DNA from: a virus
Strand: one strand, 5' to 3'
Virus record (IMG/VR): IMGVR_UViG_3300025413_000064
Span: 1 to 37,689 of that record
DNA: 37,689 nt
Shown here piece by piece: positions 1,736 through 21,272 of this stretch. The notes below the pieces were generated by a model. That model was not told the DNA's origin. It did no database searches and worked only from the letters and a program-made list of their open reading frames with translations. The position numbers and the translations under genes are program-made. Positions within the stretch are counted from its first letter, which is position 1, and every line of letters begins with the position of its first letter.

Positions 1736-1932
1736 TTTTTTCTACCGGGCATTCCGCCACCACACATAGCTTCAACATGCTCGTGGTGTTTTTTGTGTCC
1801 TGCAGCGTGTTGACCAAAGAACTCATGGTGCTGTTTATGTCCGTCACCGCCATACATTTTTTCAGTATGATCTACGTTATGAACATGCTTAGGTGTCTCT
1901 TCGTTCATCATTGGAGGAAAATCATTTTTCAT
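1732..1932 (-). CDS. His-rich small protein (66 aa)
   Basis: The product has about 13 His in 66 residues, mostly in clusters (DGHKQHHEFF, HAAGHKKHHEHVE), and ends with a Cys/Gly-rich GGGMPGRKK tail. There is no signal peptide or membrane segment. It overlaps both neighbours by 4 bases (ATGA-type junctions), which supports it being translated. I recognise no family. The His clusters suggest metal binding; a structural or assembly role is only inferred from its position among virion-region genes. Confidence 0.6.
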   Translation of the reverse strand: MKNDFPPMMNEETPKHVHNVDHTEKMYGGDGHKQHHEFFGQHAAGHKKHHEHVEAMCGGGMPGRKK

Positions 1933-2291
1933 TTTGATGGTCCTTTAACATTATACAAACCGCCAGTACCAATAGAGTTTCCACCCATACTGATCATTCT
2001 TCCTTTTGTTTTTCCGCGTTCAGCAATACCGTCTCTGCTAGGAGCGCCAGTGCGAACTTTACCCATAGTTTCTTTAGTCATGCCTTTTTTCTCTTTGCTA
2101 GAGTTAGACATGCTGGTGTCTCCACCTTTTGACATTTTCTTCATATCACCACCTTTTGAAAATTTTTTGCCTTTATCGGCGTTGCTAAAGTCTTTTCCCA
2201 CTGATTGTGGGATCCCTACCTTCTTAGCAAACGCTGGGTTGTGCGCCACCGCTGCCATAAGATTGTGTTGTTTTTTACTCGTGCTTGGCAT
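1929..2291 (-). CDS. Basic phage protein with SKKQH motif (120 aa)
   Basis: The N-terminus carries SKKQHNLMAAVAHNPAFAKK followed by VGIPQSVGKDF, a pattern I have seen in a widespread family of small phage proteins of unknown role. The rest is Lys/Gly/Ser-rich with repeated FSKGGD-like units (KFSKGGD, KMSKGGD) and then a GMTKETMGK segment. The repeats resemble the FKKGGK segment of the neighbouring 79-residue protein. It overlaps the holin-like gene by 17 bases upstream and the His-rich gene by 4 bases downstream. Confidence 0.65.
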   Translation of the reverse strand: MPSTSKKQHNLMAAVAHNPAFAKKVGIPQSVGKDFSNADKGKKFSKGGDMKKMSKGGDTSMSNSSKEKKGMTKETMGKVRTGAPSRDGIAERGKTKGRMISMGGNSIGTGGLYNVKGPSK

Positions 2292-2460
2292 TTTTTTTGA
2301 TCCAACCTTGAACTGTATCAGTTTCCCAGATGCGAATAATTAACCAAACAATTGATAAAGCCGCAGAAACCGAAGGTAATACTTCCATCAATGTTCCCAA
2401 GGTGGTAGCGATAGCTATGCCGTCTACTACGTTCTTTGCGTTTTCTGCATGTTGTACCAT
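2275..2460 (-). CDS. Putative holin (61 aa)
   Basis: A 61-residue protein with a hydrophobic region at about residues 15-45 (TTLGTLMEVLPSVSAALSIVWLI without the flanks) that could form one or two membrane segments. It is followed by IRIWETDTVQGWIKK and a charged tail. The tail with TVQGWIKK resembles small phage holins. Holins sit in the inner membrane and time lysis. No endolysin gene is in the window, so the lysis partner would have to lie in the missing segment. Assignment rests on size, hydrophobicity and tail motif. Confidence 0.6.
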   Translation of the reverse strand: MVQHAENAKNVVDGIAIATTLGTLMEVLPSVSAALSIVWLIIRIWETDTVQGWIKKNAKHE

Positions 2461-2502
2461 TTAAACCTCTTCTCTTGTTTCTTTGTACTTATCAGTGTTT
2501 TT

Positions 2503-2754
2503 TTAACAATTCCATGCTTTTAAAGACAGCGCTTTACGCGTTGGTTTTCCTTTTTCATCTTTCATTGCGCCGGGCATACCACTCATTCTTGCACAAAAAG
2601 ATTTACGTCGAGCCGCATCTTTTTCTGTTTTTGGATGTGGGGCTGGGGGTTTCAGGTTGTGCCCTTCTTTCTTTGCGGAGGCTCGCCCCTTGGCGTTCAG
2701 CCCCCCATTCGGATTCTTGCCTTCCTTGCGTTGCCATGCTGGAGACTTAGCCAT
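2503..2754 (-). CDS. DUF6321-like basic protein (83 aa)
   Basis: The sequence pattern SPAWQRKEGKNPNGGLNAKG near the N-terminus, RRKSFCARMSGMPG in the middle and a terminal TRKALSLKAWNC matches what I recall of the phage family annotated DUF6321. Two conserved-looking Cys (about residues 53 and 83) and many Lys/Arg are visible. Function is unknown. It lies 1 base after the 262-residue structural gene and 42 bases before the holin-like gene. Confidence 0.65.
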   Translation of the reverse strand: MAKSPAWQRKEGKNPNGGLNAKGRASAKKEGHNLKPPAPHPKTEKDAARRKSFCARMSGMPGAMKDEKGKPTRKALSLKAWNC

Positions 2755-2755
2755 T

Positions 2756-3544
2756 TTAAGATCCGTTAGAAATTAACTTACCGGCAATAATAACTCCAGC
2801 CGCAATGGTCGTAGCCGTGCTTGTAACCAATTGCCACTGAACATCAGTTTTTTCTGCATACAAAAAGGGATCAGAACTTCTATTTGCTGTATAAATAGAT
2901 ACAAACGGTTGTTGCAAAACATTTAGTTTTACGTTGTTAAGGTTATTAATTGCTTGTACAGAATACGTAACAATGTTGGATGATGTATAGCTATTAGAAG
3001 TGTTTACTTCCGCAAAATCCAAATAAAATGAATAGCCTGCAGGGACTGTATAAATGGTACTTTGTGTCTTACCAATTCCTGCATTAATTTGTGCAACAAT
3101 GTTTGAAACTTGTTTTAAAGTGATAGTACCTACATTAGTGTTTTGACCGGTTCCAGGGGAAACCATTATCATGCTATTAACTCTAAAATAACTGTTAACA
3201 GTTGTTACACCTGTAACCCCATTCATTGCTATTATTTCAGAAATTGGTTTAAAGTTAGCATCTAAACCATTAATTAATATGCTTGCTAAAGTGTCATCTG
3301 ATGCAGAAGAACTTACCAACGTAAGCGTGGAGGCTGTTGTAATGTATGTGTAAGTAGTTGCGTTTTCCCATACTGGGATTTTTGTATTTCCAACCGCGGA
3401 TTGATAACCAAACAAACTTAGTGTTTGATGACCAAAAATTTGACCGCGAGATACCTGTAAATCAAAAGGCTCCACCTTCGCTTGACGCGTAATGGAATTG
3501 ATTTGGTTATTAGTACTTGGTATACCGTTTGGGCTTTGTGCCAT
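2756..3544 (-). CDS. Virion structural protein, beta-rich (262 aa)
   Basis: A Thr/Ser/Asn-rich protein with almost no Cys and alternating hydrophobic/polar residues (for example TYTYITTASTLTLVSSSAS), typical of beta-sandwich virion proteins. The N-terminus is polar (MAQSPNGIPSTNNQINSI). A strong Shine-Dalgarno (AAGGAG) lies 8 bases before the ATG. It follows the 234-residue structural gene after a stable UUCG hairpin. I cannot tell whether it decorates the head or belongs to the tail; it could also be a capsid fibre. Confidence 0.65.
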   Translation of the reverse strand: MAQSPNGIPSTNNQINSITRQAKVEPFDLQVSRGQIFGHQTLSLFGYQSAVGNTKIPVWENATTYTYITTASTLTLVSSSASDDTLASILINGLDANFKPISEIIAMNGVTGVTTVNSYFRVNSMIMVSPGTGQNTNVGTITLKQVSNIVAQINAGIGKTQSTIYTVPAGYSFYLDFAEVNTSNSYTSSNIVTYSVQAINNLNNVKLNVLQQPFVSIYTANRSSDPFLYAEKTDVQWQLVTSTATTIAAGVIIAGKLISNGS

Positions 3545-14765: not shown

Positions 14766-14795
14766 CGGTTAGGGATTGGCTCTAGTCGGTATCGG
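14761..14795 (+). repeat. Direct repeat GGTATCGG in the early leader
   Basis: GGTATCGG occurs at 14761-14768 and again at 14788-14795, spaced 27 bases start to start. The first copy overlaps the right operator arm and the second runs into the first GGGGAC hairpin. These may be additional regulator contacts. Confidence 0.4.
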
Positions 14796-16150: not shown

Positions 16151-16852
16151 ATGCCAAAGACATACCTCAACATGACCCCGAACGAAATTCACAACGCTTT
16201 AACCAAGCGTATCCCACAACCCGAGGCACGAGAGTTAAAGAAACAAGAGTTACTTAATCTTAAACACAAACTCAAGTCCGAGAGACTACGCACCATTCAA
16301 CACAAACGCTTATGGTCTGAGTTACTCAGCCCCCTTGTATACGAACTAGCCAACGCAAGGGTTGGCATCAAACATGAGAGCAAGTACAAGGGAGAACGAG
16401 AGGTAGCGTTTAACGCTTACATTGCGGTGATGGATAAGCTACTTAATAAGTTCAAGCAAATGCAGTTACTTAGAGATGAGGACAACAACCCTTACACACC
16501 TAGCGAACTAGCTAGACAAGCGGACATACAGAACAAGGGTGTGCATTGGACGGATTGGATACCCATGACTAAGCAACTACAAGTGTGTGAACTATTCGAG
16601 CAGATACCTCATGCACCCAAGACTAAACGCAAAGTACCCTTTCAGCGTACTCAAAGACCGAACACCAAACAGCGGGAGAGGTTACTCAACCGCACCATAA
16701 AAGAACTGGGCAACGCTCAGACAGAGCAACTGATCGAGCCGACCGAGGAAAGAGCCGAGCTTATATCCCAAATGCAAAACGCTATAAAAAGAATAGAGCA
16801 ACTCAAACCAACGGATGCCGTACCACACACATGGCATGGACTAGAAGACTAA
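16151..16852 (+). CDS. Hypothetical basic helical protein (233 aa)
   Basis: The protein is Lys/Arg-rich and mostly helical (for example ELKKQELLNLKHKLKSERLR), with a central DNNPYTPSELARQADIQNK that could be a weak HTH-like stretch, and a basic KTKRKVPFQRTQRPNTKQRE segment before a final helix. I recognise no family. Basic charge and position after a promoter suggest a nucleic-acid-binding early protein. It begins MPKTYLNMTPNEIHNALTKR after TTAATC, without a strong Shine-Dalgarno, as do the two small genes at 15320 and 15427. Confidence 0.65.
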   Translation: MPKTYLNMTPNEIHNALTKRIPQPEARELKKQELLNLKHKLKSERLRTIQHKRLWSELLSPLVYELANARVGIKHESKYKGEREVAFNAYIAVMDKLLNKFKQMQLLRDEDNNPYTPSELARQADIQNKGVHWTDWIPMTKQLQVCELFEQIPHAPKTKRKVPFQRTQRPNTKQRERLLNRTIKELGNAQTEQLIEPTEERAELISQMQNAIKRIEQLKPTDAVPHTWHGLED

Positions 16853-17443: not shown

Positions 17444-17459
17444 GGGGAGATATCTCCCC
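17444..17459 (+). repeat. Dispersed hairpin, copy 5 (GGGGAG-ATAT-CTCCCC)
   Basis: Second copy with the compensatory G-C sixth pair. It lies between the 92-residue gene and the amidoligase gene, and a further hairpin follows at 17468-17486. Confidence 0.7.
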
Positions 17460-17467
17460 GATCTGTA

Positions 17468-17509: not shown

Positions 17510-19345
17510 ATGAAATTTTATGTAACTACTTTACCCTTTTCAAACTACGACACACAAGCAGTCAGACTCTTTGCTGTGTTTGCTGATAGGCGGTATGCAA
17601 TTCTTGACATGACCAGAGAGCAATGGCTTGGTGCTATGGCGGGTGTATCTCAAGGCGGTAGATATCTGGCTTTTGATAGTCAAATGTTTGATGCGAGTAC
17701 ACGCACGAGTCATAGTGAGTTTTATGCAAGGCTTTTTCCTGAGCCAGTACAGTTAAACACATACGAGATCAACCTGCTGTATACCAACAACAACTACTAC
17801 ATGGAGAAACTCTTTAATCTGATAGCAAACCAGCTTGACTATTACAGAACTAGACGGCTCAGGAATATATATGCAGAACGATCAAACAGACTATCGTTCA
17901 CAGGCTCTACACCCAAGCACATCGTTTACAAAGGTCGCACTTATAACTGTAACAATGATGAATATGACATGGTGCGTTATAACAAAGCTCGTGCTAACTA
18001 CAAGCTACTCAAATCAGCGTTCAATCAGTTGTTATCGGGTGAGGAGGATGATGCACGAGAGTGGTGCGATGTGTTCATGGATTTGTATTCGGCAGATCGT
18101 TCACGCCACGACTACCTAGTTACAGCCTTTGAGAAGTGTCGTGAGGTTCTTGCAAGCAAACACTTAGATGGTACGTTGACTATTGCTATTGCAGATACTT
18201 GTGGTCACATTGAGTATATTAACGAGATGCACAGCGATCTAGGTTCATCGGGAGACGAGCAAGTTTGTGATCGTTGTTTCGGCGATAACTATGTGTATGT
18301 CGAGGATCATAGTGAGTATTGGGATCGTGAGAACGAGGAGGTGTATTACCATGAGAGTAGAGATGCGTACTATTCATACGCAGAAGACGACTACGATGAC
18401 AATGATGATGACGACAGAGACCCAGGTGATCCCAACTATCTTATGGACTACGCAACCAATGTGCTTAGGGTACTAGAGCCTGACCACAAACTTATATCAT
18501 CTACGCATGGTGACTTCCGCATGGGTATCGAGTTCGAGATGACTAGCGGTAGAGATAAGTATCGTGATGATGCAGTCACCAATGTACGACAGCAATTAGG
18601 TACAGAGTATTGCGTGTGTAAGTCTGACGGCTCGTTGCCCGACAACGGACTAGAGATTGTGACTGCGCCTCGTGGACTAGCCGAGCATATCAAGCGCTTC
18701 AAGAACTGGGATATAGATCCATCGTATCGTGCATGGGACGTAGGTACTTGCGGTATGCACATTCACGTCCACTCTAAAGCGTTCAGTCCACTTGTGTTTG
18801 GTAAGTTCGTTATGTTTATTAACTGCGAGGAGAACACCGATTTCATTCGTAAGATTGCAGGTCGTCATCCACGCAAAGATAGACAAGCCCAGTCGTACTG
18901 CCAAGTCGAGGGCGAGGAAGCATTACAGAATCCATCCAAGGCAGTCAAGGGTAAAGGCGGTGATCGTTACTACATGATCAACACACAGAACTTATCAAGA
19001 GCAGAGCGTGATCGGTTGCAGATCAATAAACATTGCTATACCAATGGTAAGGACTACGATACTGTTGAGTTGCGTATCTTTAGAGCATCGCTCAAGAAAG
19101 AACGTCTGCTTGCACAGATCGAGTTTACCCATGCGTCTGTTATGTTCTGTCGTGTCGCATCGTGGAAACATTTAGATAAGATGCACTTCATCGAGTGGCT
19201 CAAGACTACGGACAATGTGTATCCACATCTCTCCGACTGGTACGGCGTACGTAGACGTGCCAAGAAACAAGAAACTCTTGTGCATCCAACAAGCGCACCG
19301 CTTGAGAACTCTTGTGCCGACACACCTGATTCAACATCTGTTTAA
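17510..19345 (+). CDS. Amidoligase-family protein (COOH-NH2 ligase), 611 aa
   Basis: The C-terminal half matches the amidoligase (glutamine synthetase-fold COOH-NH2 ligase) pattern: RMGIEFEMTSG (about residues 337-347), DGSLPDNGLEIVTAP (about 373-387), GTCGMHIHVHS (about 412-422) and TVELRIFRASLK (about 517-528). These supply the acidic metal-binding and His residues of the ATP-dependent ligase site. The N-terminal ~220 residues are unassigned. A Cys/His segment (CGH near 230, CDRC near 253) may bind Zn, and an Asp/Tyr-rich linker (about 285-310) precedes the ligase domain. The family joins amines to carboxylates. The next gene is a glutamine amidotransferase that could supply ammonia. Start: AGGAG 7 bases upstream. 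Confidence 0.75.
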   Translation: MKFYVTTLPFSNYDTQAVRLFAVFADRRYAILDMTREQWLGAMAGVSQGGRYLAFDSQMFDASTRTSHSEFYARLFPEPVQLNTYEINLLYTNNNYYMEKLFNLIANQLDYYRTRRLRNIYAERSNRLSFTGSTPKHIVYKGRTYNCNNDEYDMVRYNKARANYKLLKSAFNQLLSGEEDDAREWCDVFMDLYSADRSRHDYLVTAFEKCREVLASKHLDGTLTIAIADTCGHIEYINEMHSDLGSSGDEQVCDRCFGDNYVYVEDHSEYWDRENEEVYYHESRDAYYSYAEDDYDDNDDDDRDPGDPNYLMDYATNVLRVLEPDHKLISSTHGDFRMGIEFEMTSGRDKYRDDAVTNVRQQLGTEYCVCKSDGSLPDNGLEIVTAPRGLAEHIKRFKNWDIDPSYRAWDVGTCGMHIHVHSKAFSPLVFGKFVMFINCEENTDFIRKIAGRHPRKDRQAQSYCQVEGEEALQNPSKAVKGKGGDRYYMINTQNLSRAERDRLQINKHCYTNGKDYDTVELRIFRASLKKERLLAQIEFTHASVMFCRVASWKHLDKMHFIEWLKTTDNVYPHLSDWYGVRRRAKKQETLVHPTSAPLENSCADTPDSTSV

Positions 19346-19375
19346 TTCATTCATCAACTATTAAAGGAAATCATT

Positions 19376-20482
19376 ATGTGTTTAATCATTACAGGTAAAT
19401 CAAATTCTATTCGTGCAACATTACTAAATACACATGGTATGTTGGCTGACATCTTTACATCTAACCCAGATGGTATCGGTATCATGTATGGCTCGGCTAA
19501 GGGACTCAAGGTTATCAAGACTTTGCCCAAGTCTTTGGCAGATGCAACAGCGTTCATTCAACGCTTACCAGTAGATGATCGTGAACTAGCTATTCACTTT
19601 CGTTGGACAACACACGGCAACACAGACATGACCAACTGCCATCCTTACGATGTCATCCCTGGTTATGTAGCTATGATGCACAACGGCGTATTGCATACTG
19701 GTAACAAAGCCGACACAACCAAGTCAGACACATGGCACTTCATCAAAGACTTCGTAGCCAGTCCAGTTACCGAGCATCCGCCACTCGTACACAATCAATC
19801 GTATCTTGATATGCTTGCTGAGTACATTGGTGACAATCGCTTTGTGTTCATGGATGGTGACGGCAAAATGTCCCATGTCAACTATGACCAAGGTATCGAG
19901 CATGATGGGCTATGGTTCAGCAACACATACGCATGGAGTCCAGCCAAGCTCATACCCAATTACTACAAATCATCTGTATATTCCAAGCGGTACAGCGCAT
20001 ACGACTATGATTACGATGACGAATACAACTACAACAATTGGGCGTTCAACAAACCACTAGCGTCTACTACAAAGCCTGTAGCAACTACGGCAACTACAAC
20101 AAAATCAGCAATCATCAAGCCTTTGTCTGCCCATAATCACAACTGGATGGATGACGACTACGATATGCCTGAAGACTTTGATCCTGACAACAAGGTTGCT
20201 TTGATTGAGAAAGCGTTAGACGAGTACAACGCAACACTTATGATGGACTTGATTGACGCTGATCCCGAGGACACGCTTGAGTTGTTGTTTGATGTGTTCG
20301 AGCCTAACTACGCTAGTTCAGTAGATATGGAGTATGCAGGTATAGAGGAGGACATTGTGCACATGGTCATGGCAGAGGATGTGGGTGCGTTGCTCGAAGT
20401 GGCTTACGATCACCGAGTTGCTAACGTGATCTGTTATTACTTTGCATGGGACAAACGTGAGAGTATTCATCAAATAGGTTGA
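19376..20482 (+). CDS. Class II glutamine amidotransferase-like protein (368 aa)
   Basis: The N-terminal nucleophile is present (MCLIITGKS; Cys2 exposed after Met removal). GAT-II motifs follow in order: SNPDGIGIMYG (about residues 29-39), HFRWTTHGNTDMTNCHPYD (74-92) and MMHNGVLH (100-107). These form the glutaminase site of Ntn hydrolases. The domain ends near residue 200. A Tyr/Asp-rich linker (YDYDYDDEYNYNNW) and an unassigned acidic C-terminal region (about 270-368) follow; no synthetase domain is fused. It begins 30 bases after the amidoligase gene, with AAAGGAAATC before the ATG, so the two are probably one functional unit. Confidence 0.78.
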   Translation: MCLIITGKSNSIRATLLNTHGMLADIFTSNPDGIGIMYGSAKGLKVIKTLPKSLADATAFIQRLPVDDRELAIHFRWTTHGNTDMTNCHPYDVIPGYVAMMHNGVLHTGNKADTTKSDTWHFIKDFVASPVTEHPPLVHNQSYLDMLAEYIGDNRFVFMDGDGKMSHVNYDQGIEHDGLWFSNTYAWSPAKLIPNYYKSSVYSKRYSAYDYDYDDEYNYNNWAFNKPLASTTKPVATTATTTKSAIIKPLSAHNHNWMDDDYDMPEDFDPDNKVALIEKALDEYNATLMMDLIDADPEDTLELLFDVFEPNYASSVDMEYAGIEEDIVHMVMAEDVGALLEVAYDHRVANVICYYFAWDKRESIHQIG

Positions 20483-20494
20483 TGAGGCAGGGTC

Positions 20495-20510
20495 GGGGAC
20501 ATTTGTCCCC
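20495..20510 (+). repeat. Dispersed hairpin, copy 6 (GGGGAC-ATTT-GTCCCC)
   Basis: Perfect copy 12 bases after the glutaminase gene's stop, followed by GATCTTTATTTAAA, a moderate U-tract, so it could work as a weak terminator for the amidoligase-glutaminase unit. It is the last copy I found in the early block. Confidence 0.7.
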
Positions 20511-20539
20511 GATCTTTATTTAAACTAAAGGAGAAACAA

Positions 20540-20740
20540 ATGGAGATTGATTTGGATAAAGTGCTTGAGAACGCAGTTCATCATATGGACAGCGATGTAG
20601 ATGTGCATTGGACGATAGGCATGGCGCTAGTGGAATTGTACCCAAAACAGATACTTAAGTTACAAGAATCAATGGTGCAGAAGTACAACGAGCGTTTAAA
20701 AGATATGTATAATGTTAGACACAACAACCAGGAGAAGTAA
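20540..20740 (+). CDS. Hypothetical protein (66 aa)
   Basis: AAAGGAG precedes the ATG by 8 bases. The 66-residue product is acidic at the start (MEIDLDKVLENAVHHMDSDV) and helical after it (ALVELYPKQILKLQESMVQK). It is followed 1 base later by the next ATG. Not recognised. Confidence 0.6.
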   Translation: MEIDLDKVLENAVHHMDSDVDVHWTIGMALVELYPKQILKLQESMVQKYNERLKDMYNVRHNNQEK

Positions 20741-20741
20741 T

Positions 20742-21272
20742 ATGGGAACATTACAAACAGAACTCAGGAAAGTTATAGACGAGTGGACAGCAGACGAGGT
20801 AGGGCAAGATCAGCAATCACAAACAAAACAGGAAAGCAAAATGCACATTAGTAAAACAATATTCAACTACATCAAAGACCACGAGGGGTGCACAATTAAG
20901 AATGTGGTGGATGCTATGACAGCGCTTGGTATCAAAGACAAGACTACAGATTCGCTTATCTATCAAATGATGGGGTGTAGCATGATCTTCAGAGACGAGA
21001 CGTGTGGCGAGTTATTTGTTAGGGTCAAAGAGTATCAGTCTATTAAATCTATGTATAAGAAAAAGGATGCTAATAGAGTTAAACGCAAATACACTAAGCA
21101 ACAAAAGCCAATTGAGCCAACGCCACAGACGAAGCCCGAACCTACCCGCATACTACCTAAGACAGAGCGACCACTTTGGAATGTACAAACGCTCATTGAG
21201 AATCTATCGCTGTTGCAAGGTAGAGAATTGTATTTTGCACTTAAATTAATATTTGAGGAAAGCACAAAATGA
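20742..21272 (+). CDS. Winged-helix-like protein (176 aa)
   Basis: I place the start at 20742 (CAGGAG 7 bases upstream). Residues ~35-95 look like a winged helix: HISKTIFNYIKDHEGCTIKN, VVDAMTALGIKDKTTDSLIY and a strand pair at MIFRDETCGELFVRV. After it comes a basic Pro/Lys/Thr linker (about 105-145) and a C-terminal helix. This could be an early regulator or replication accessory protein; the DNA-binding call is by fold pattern only. Its stop overlaps the next small gene (ATGA). Confidence 0.6.
   Translation: MGTLQTELRKVIDEWTADEVGQDQQSQTKQESKMHISKTIFNYIKDHEGCTIKNVVDAMTALGIKDKTTDSLIYQMMGCSMIFRDETCGELFVRVKEYQSIKSMYKKKDANRVKRKYTKQQKPIEPTPQTKPEPTRILPKTERPLWNVQTLIENLSLLQGRELYFALKLIFEESTK

Follow-up and report, generated by a model that had tools for sequence, protein, structure and literature searches.

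An amidoligase–class II glutaminase gene pair as a candidate two-enzyme module for amide formation in phages

Two adjacent genes in the IMG/VR virus record IMGVR_UViG_3300025413_000064, a 37.7-kb stretch of DNA that was analyzed over its full length of 37,689 nucleotides and is called the window here, encode a predicted amidoligase and a predicted stand-alone class II glutaminase (GAT-II). Considering sequence conservation and structure models together, we regard it as fairly probable that the pair constitutes a minimal phage-encoded, glutamine-dependent amide-forming module of two enzymes. As this two-gene unit is kept in clearly more than a hundred contigs of aquatic phages, it must pay its way in infection, and it also occurs in phages of Proteobacteria, Actinobacteria, and probably Bacteroidota that are unrelated to one another.

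Genomic setting and transcription unit

Packaging and head genes occupy the minus strand of the window from about 0.2 to 14.4 kb, and the plus strand carries an early region that includes polA as well as SNF2-like helicase, nuclease, and primase-like genes. The amidoligase gene (17510–19345, plus strand, 611 residues) and the GAT-II gene (19376–20482, plus strand, 368 residues) are located in this early region alongside the replication genes, and both open reading frames agree in their coordinates with the earlier sequence-only reading of this DNA. They are separated by 30 nt, and both are closely preceded by a Shine-Dalgarno-like AGGAG/AAGGA element. The upstream neighbor on the plus strand (16151–16852, 233 residues) is kept in 53 loci of the lineage and has no Pfam or PHROG match. 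The downstream neighbor on the same strand (20712–21272, 186 residues) is a winged-helix-like protein with weak MCM_C, MarR, and Ren-like matches that is kept in 54 loci; as this reflects the synteny of the lineage, its association with the enzyme pair is putative at most.

By its sequence, the pair is a probable transcription unit with putative terminators on both sides. On the 5' side, the hairpin GGGGAGATATCTCCCC, followed by GATCT, is found at 17444–17464 of the plus strand (hairpin at 17444–17459). On the 3' side, the hairpin TCGGGGACATTTGTCCCCGA is followed by TCTTTATTT at 20493–20520 of the plus strand (hairpin at 20493–20512) and is the probable terminator of the unit. Of 68 relatives, 59 have a GC stem at this place 3' of GAT-II, and as the stem sequences differ while a T-run is usual, this stem is most likely a terminator. 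The sequence-only reading had regarded hairpin repeats as boundaries of the unit. They are indeed present on both sides, but they are generic: copies of the 17444 element occur at 14794, 15234, 15762, and 16900, and the GGGGA...TCCC element recurs in the window beyond the unit, which is why we dropped the idea that these hairpins specifically mark it. Including the positions 17444 and 20495 (and also 3569), these short hairpins are mostly GGGGACATTTGTCCCC or GGGGAGATnTCTCCCC and stand within or between early-region genes. They are probably terminators; alternatively, such near-identical repeats could be an RNA or protein binding site.

Predicted folds and active sites

The motifs RMGIEFEM, CGMHIHVH, and TVELRIF, from which the 611-residue protein had originally been read as an amidoligase, are present, and PF12224 (Amidoligase_2) matches residues 413–542 with 29.2 bits (E = 1.1e-6), above its curated cut-off of 22 bits. 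An AlphaFold model of the whole protein, generated with an alignment of 44 relatives as input, had a mean pLDDT of 81.8, with values of about 90–98 across most of the ligase domain in the C-terminal half (about residues 330–580). The top Foldseek match of this model was YbdK from Escherichia coli (E = 8.9e-4), which VIA aligned with a Z-score of 11.2 over 225 residues (rmsd 5.4). Residues 329–611 also aligned with glutamine synthetases (GS) in many matches with Z-scores of about 10–11, and PafA was found lower in the list. In the model, the segment 330–580 thus has a glutamine-synthetase fold. When solved structures were searched by sequence with the amidoligase profile, only chance matches were obtained, and these were set aside.

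Ten residues (E341, E343, D373, E382, H417, H419, R452, R486, E520, and R522) are invariant in all 45 aligned amidoligases, and the ATP/metal and substrate motifs ExE, DGS...E, HxH, and ExR..R are likewise kept in 45 of 45 sequences. The protein is therefore predicted to be a GS-fold carboxylate–amine ligase whose active site for ATP/Mg and substrate is complete, and ATP-dependent amide-bond formation is its predicted activity. Residues 1–220 form a variable N-terminal region without a family match. Between this region and the linker, there is a cluster of cysteines and histidine (C231-x-H233 ... C253-x2-C256) that is invariant among the aligned relatives and suggests a likely zinc site; similar CxxC clusters N-terminal to the ligase domain are also found in the amidoligases of podovirus ctgrD200, mycobacteriophage Marvin, and Bifidobacterium phage BP677P1. 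The acidic Tyr/Asp linker that follows (about residues 265–325) is evident from the composition of residues 262–330, of which 33% are Asp or Glu and 16% aromatic. Many relatives, among them those of loci L036, L052, and L054, have larger amidoligases of about 690–720 residues, which extend at the C-terminus by about 90 residues that are absent in the window protein.

The product of the second gene comprises a predicted N-terminal-nucleophile (Ntn) glutaminase domain (residues 1–195), a disordered Tyr/Asp linker (residues 196–254), and an acidic helical domain (about residues 258–364). The motifs MCLI, HFRWTTHG, and MHNG, on which the assignment as an Ntn glutaminase had been based, were confirmed. 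Family searches were less uniform than for the amidoligase: the GlmS model NF001484 matched with E = 8e-7, but PF13230 (GATase_4), the best Pfam match, stayed slightly below its cut-off of 23 with 21.3 bits (E = 1.4e-4), and PF13522 did not reach its cut-off of 27 (14.5 bits). The ctgrD200 relative passes the PF13230 cut-off with 26.7 bits. With the GAT-II profile, only weak GlmS and PurF matches were obtained among solved structures, and galectin matches were dismissed as chance. The Ntn identity is settled by the structure model, which has a pLDDT of about 90 for most of residues 1–185 and below 50 in the linker: residues 2–198 matched EgtC best (Z-score 12.9), followed by GlmS (11.7) and PurF (about 10). 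By modeled fold and by aligned residues, the window GAT-II is a divergent family member that does not pass the curated score.

The residues M1, C2, N30, G33, R76, T79, H80, G81, H89, N103, G104, and D118 are invariant in 31 of 31 GAT-II relatives. All 31 have Cys2 right after the start Met, as expected from the sequence-only reading, and removal of this Met is predicted to expose the catalytic N-terminal Cys. M1-C2, R76, N103-G104, and D118 align with positions of GlmS that we take to be the nucleophile, the glutamine-carboxylate Arg, the oxyanion-hole Asn-Gly, and the amino-group Asp, respectively. The protein is thus a predicted stand-alone Ntn glutaminase with a complete glutamine pocket, and the models contain both the GS-fold ligase and the Ntn-hydrolase active sites.

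Pairing and gene order

IMG/VR was searched with each of the two family alignments, which gave 133 and 209 contigs with relatives, and we inspected the best 80 contigs from each search. Among the best 80 GAT-II matches, the amidoligase gene was located directly 5' of the GAT-II gene in 72 contigs, and the other eight contigs are cut off no more than about 400 nt before the GAT-II gene. Among the best 80 amidoligase matches, GAT-II followed directly in 75 contigs, and the other five end right after the amidoligase gene. As all contigs without a partner start or end at the pair, there were no informative exceptions in either set of 80, and the two genes are a fixed unit, adjacent and in constant order, wherever a contig has room for both. 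The pairing claimed from the sequence alone was thereby borne out.

Most of these contigs belong to one phage lineage, since the neighbors around the pair (the terminase genes, the 233-residue gene, the winged-helix gene, and polA) are conserved as well, and therefore synteny alone could account for the constancy of the pair there. Mirror-tree analysis gave a correlation of 0.90 between amidoligase and GAT-II over 59 loci. On 29 common loci, the value was 0.78, in comparison to 0.77 for amidoligase and TerL and 0.81 for GAT-II and the winged-helix protein, and we discarded a specific co-evolution of the pair because 0.78 is not above the genome background. Co-inheritance inside the lineage therefore adds little beyond synteny.

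Recurrence in unrelated phages is the stronger evidence for the pairing. The amidoligase precedes GAT-II in the same way in OM43 phage MEP401, podovirus ctgrD200, Pseudomonas phage LUZ24 (gp18-gp19), mycobacteriophage Marvin (gp105-gp106), Bifidobacterium phage BP677P1, and in loci of Bacteroidota MAGs with PF12224 E-values down to 1e-30. In BP677P1, the amidoligase gene (1762–3443) is split across two overlapping frames (1762–3144, then 2592–3443), which may be due to a sequencing error, decay, or frameshifting. Some of the Bacteroidota MAG contigs (L165, L166, L168, and L169) have phage-like neighbors. Their PF12224 scores are far better than that of the window protein and their GAT-II comprises only about 180 residues, which makes this pair a simpler form for biochemistry.

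An amidoligase that is not beside any GAT-II is encoded by Clostridioides difficile phage AR1086-1, and such an occurrence counts against the interpretation of the pair as a module. In that phage (1063–7857), the amidoligase gene adjoins a gene for an RlaP-like RNA-repair nucleotidyltransferase and is near a gene for a KptA-like RNA 2'-phosphotransferase.

Possible reactions and relation to known systems

If the pair forms amides, GAT-II would split glutamine into glutamate and ammonia, and the ligase would activate a carboxylate as acyl-phosphate with ATP and join the ammonia to it. Both enzymes could act in trans via their acidic linkers, which had already been noted as Asp/Tyr-rich in both proteins, or via their accessory domains. 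The complete pocket agrees with the ammonia-donating role that had been proposed for GAT-II, but the role itself is inferred, and EgtC matches the structure model just as well as GlmS. The substrate, which the sequence-only reading had left open, may be a molecule that the host makes in its cytosol, and a carboxylate of a peptidoglycan-precursor peptide appears most likely, albeit with low confidence. A cell-wall peptide precursor is also the foremost candidate in published work, and this hypothesis comes from the literature only. An altered substrate might, equally tentatively, shield the infected cell from other phages.

EgtC is a stand-alone gamma-glutamyl amidohydrolase and EgtA a gamma-glutamyl ligase, and both belong to ergothioneine biosynthesis. 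A stand-alone GAT-II may, like EgtC, work as a gamma-glutamyl hydrolase and not as an ammonia donor, which counts against an amide-forming module. The GS-fold enzyme could link the side-chain carboxylate of glutamate, or of a similar acid, to an amine, and the EgtC-like GAT-II could later cleave the gamma-glutamyl amide, in a cycle of protection and deprotection or of making and unmaking whose logic would be comparable to that of EgtA and EgtC. We consider this possible, although clearly less probable than amide formation. The top rank of EgtC, itself stand-alone, the best Pfam match to GATase_4, and the top ligase match YbdK, a carboxylate–amine ligase related to gamma-glutamyl-cysteine ligases, are in line with such a cycle. 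However, the difference in Z-score between EgtC and GlmS is only about 1, the sequence HMMs favor GlmS, the pocket residues R76, N103, G104, and D118 suit either reaction, and pathway partners are not encoded next to the pair. This alternative stands because the same glutamine pocket serves both reactions.

More speculative, and in our view rather unlikely, is a self-sufficient and widespread phage pathway for an undescribed macromolecular modification that does without the further enzymes of the LUZ24/phiEco32 cassette. In such a pathway, the ligase would recognize a host protein, RNA, or a cell-wall precursor through its zinc-binding and acidic segments, and glutamine-derived ammonia or a gamma-glutamyl group would be attached to this target.

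Some phages carry out glutamine- or amino-acid-dependent base modification, and the pair is located in the early region beside replication genes, which would be compatible with the pair adding an amide to a modified base in the phage DNA. Such hypermodification of DNA or nucleotides is improbable, as genes of the thymidylate-synthase (PF00303) and QueC (PF06508) families were not found in the window and 24 related records while bacterial-genome controls matched, and other base-modification enzymes were not recognized among the scanned ORFs. That the two genes are mere neighbors with unrelated functions in one phage lineage is the least credible explanation and very improbable, since, despite the background-level mirror-tree correlation and the conservation of other nearby genes, the same order appears in phages that are unrelated in lineage and host, with different genes around the pair.

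Returning to the amide-forming module, its parts are related to known enzymes only distantly. The window amidoligase shares the core fold and the active-site motif positions with YbdK and glutamine synthetase, but identity is 10–14%, and the window protein has a long N-terminal region with the Cys/His cluster and an acidic linker. The window GAT-II shares fold and catalytic residues with EgtC and the GlmS glutaminase domain, but at 12–15% identity, with an extra acidic helical C-terminal domain and a GS-fold amidoligase as partner. The Marvin pair resembles that of the window in that its first protein is amidoligase-like, has CxxC clusters toward the N-terminus as well as an acidic stretch, and is followed by a GATase_4-like GAT-II, but the pair belongs to an actinobacterial phage, the similarity is weak, and the annotation is just that of glutamine amidotransferase domain proteins.

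The gene pair was confirmed, but it is not peculiar to the phage studied. Amidoligase/GATase genes have been described within the larger cassettes of LUZ24/phiEco32-type phages such as UFV-P2 (PMC3890496) and PSA-HP1 (PMC5498523), for which a remodeling of host peptidoglycan or surface against superinfection has been proposed (PMC3890496, PMC5498523), and a pair was reported as auxiliary metabolic genes in OM43 phages MEP401/MEP402 and relatives (PMC10580990); all three studies credit the amidoligase/GATase idea to Iyer et al. (2009). As in the window, a PF12224 amidoligase is directly followed by GAT-II in the LUZ24/phiEco32 cassette (LUZ24 gp18-gp19), whose core the module resembles. However, the cassette GAT-II is a GATase_6 and that of the window is closer to GATase_4, and the cassette encodes three further enzymes, namely a COOH-NH2 ligase (PF14395), an ATP-grasp enzyme, and a gamma-glutamyl cyclotransferase (GGACT, PF06094). 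None of the three was found in the window and 22 relatives: PF14395 and PF06094 matched in none of 25 records (the window and relatives, some possibly fragments), whereas the positive controls matched (LUZ24 and phiEco32 for PF14395), and the ATP-grasp query LUZ24 gp21 matched in LUZ24 and phiEco32 only. We therefore class the window pair as an OM43-like two-gene core and not as a full cassette, and in this minimal form the question is reduced to a pair of soluble proteins. The OM43 pair has the same two families, order, and adjacency, its GAT-II also starts with Met-Cys, and other cassette enzymes were not found there either. Identity to the window proteins over the alignment is 22% for the ligase and 24% for GAT-II, and the OM43 proteins are shorter, do not have the long C-terminal GAT-II region, and come from a different phage lineage. 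The window pair is thus a new, divergent member of the phage amidoligase–GAT-II pairs already described.
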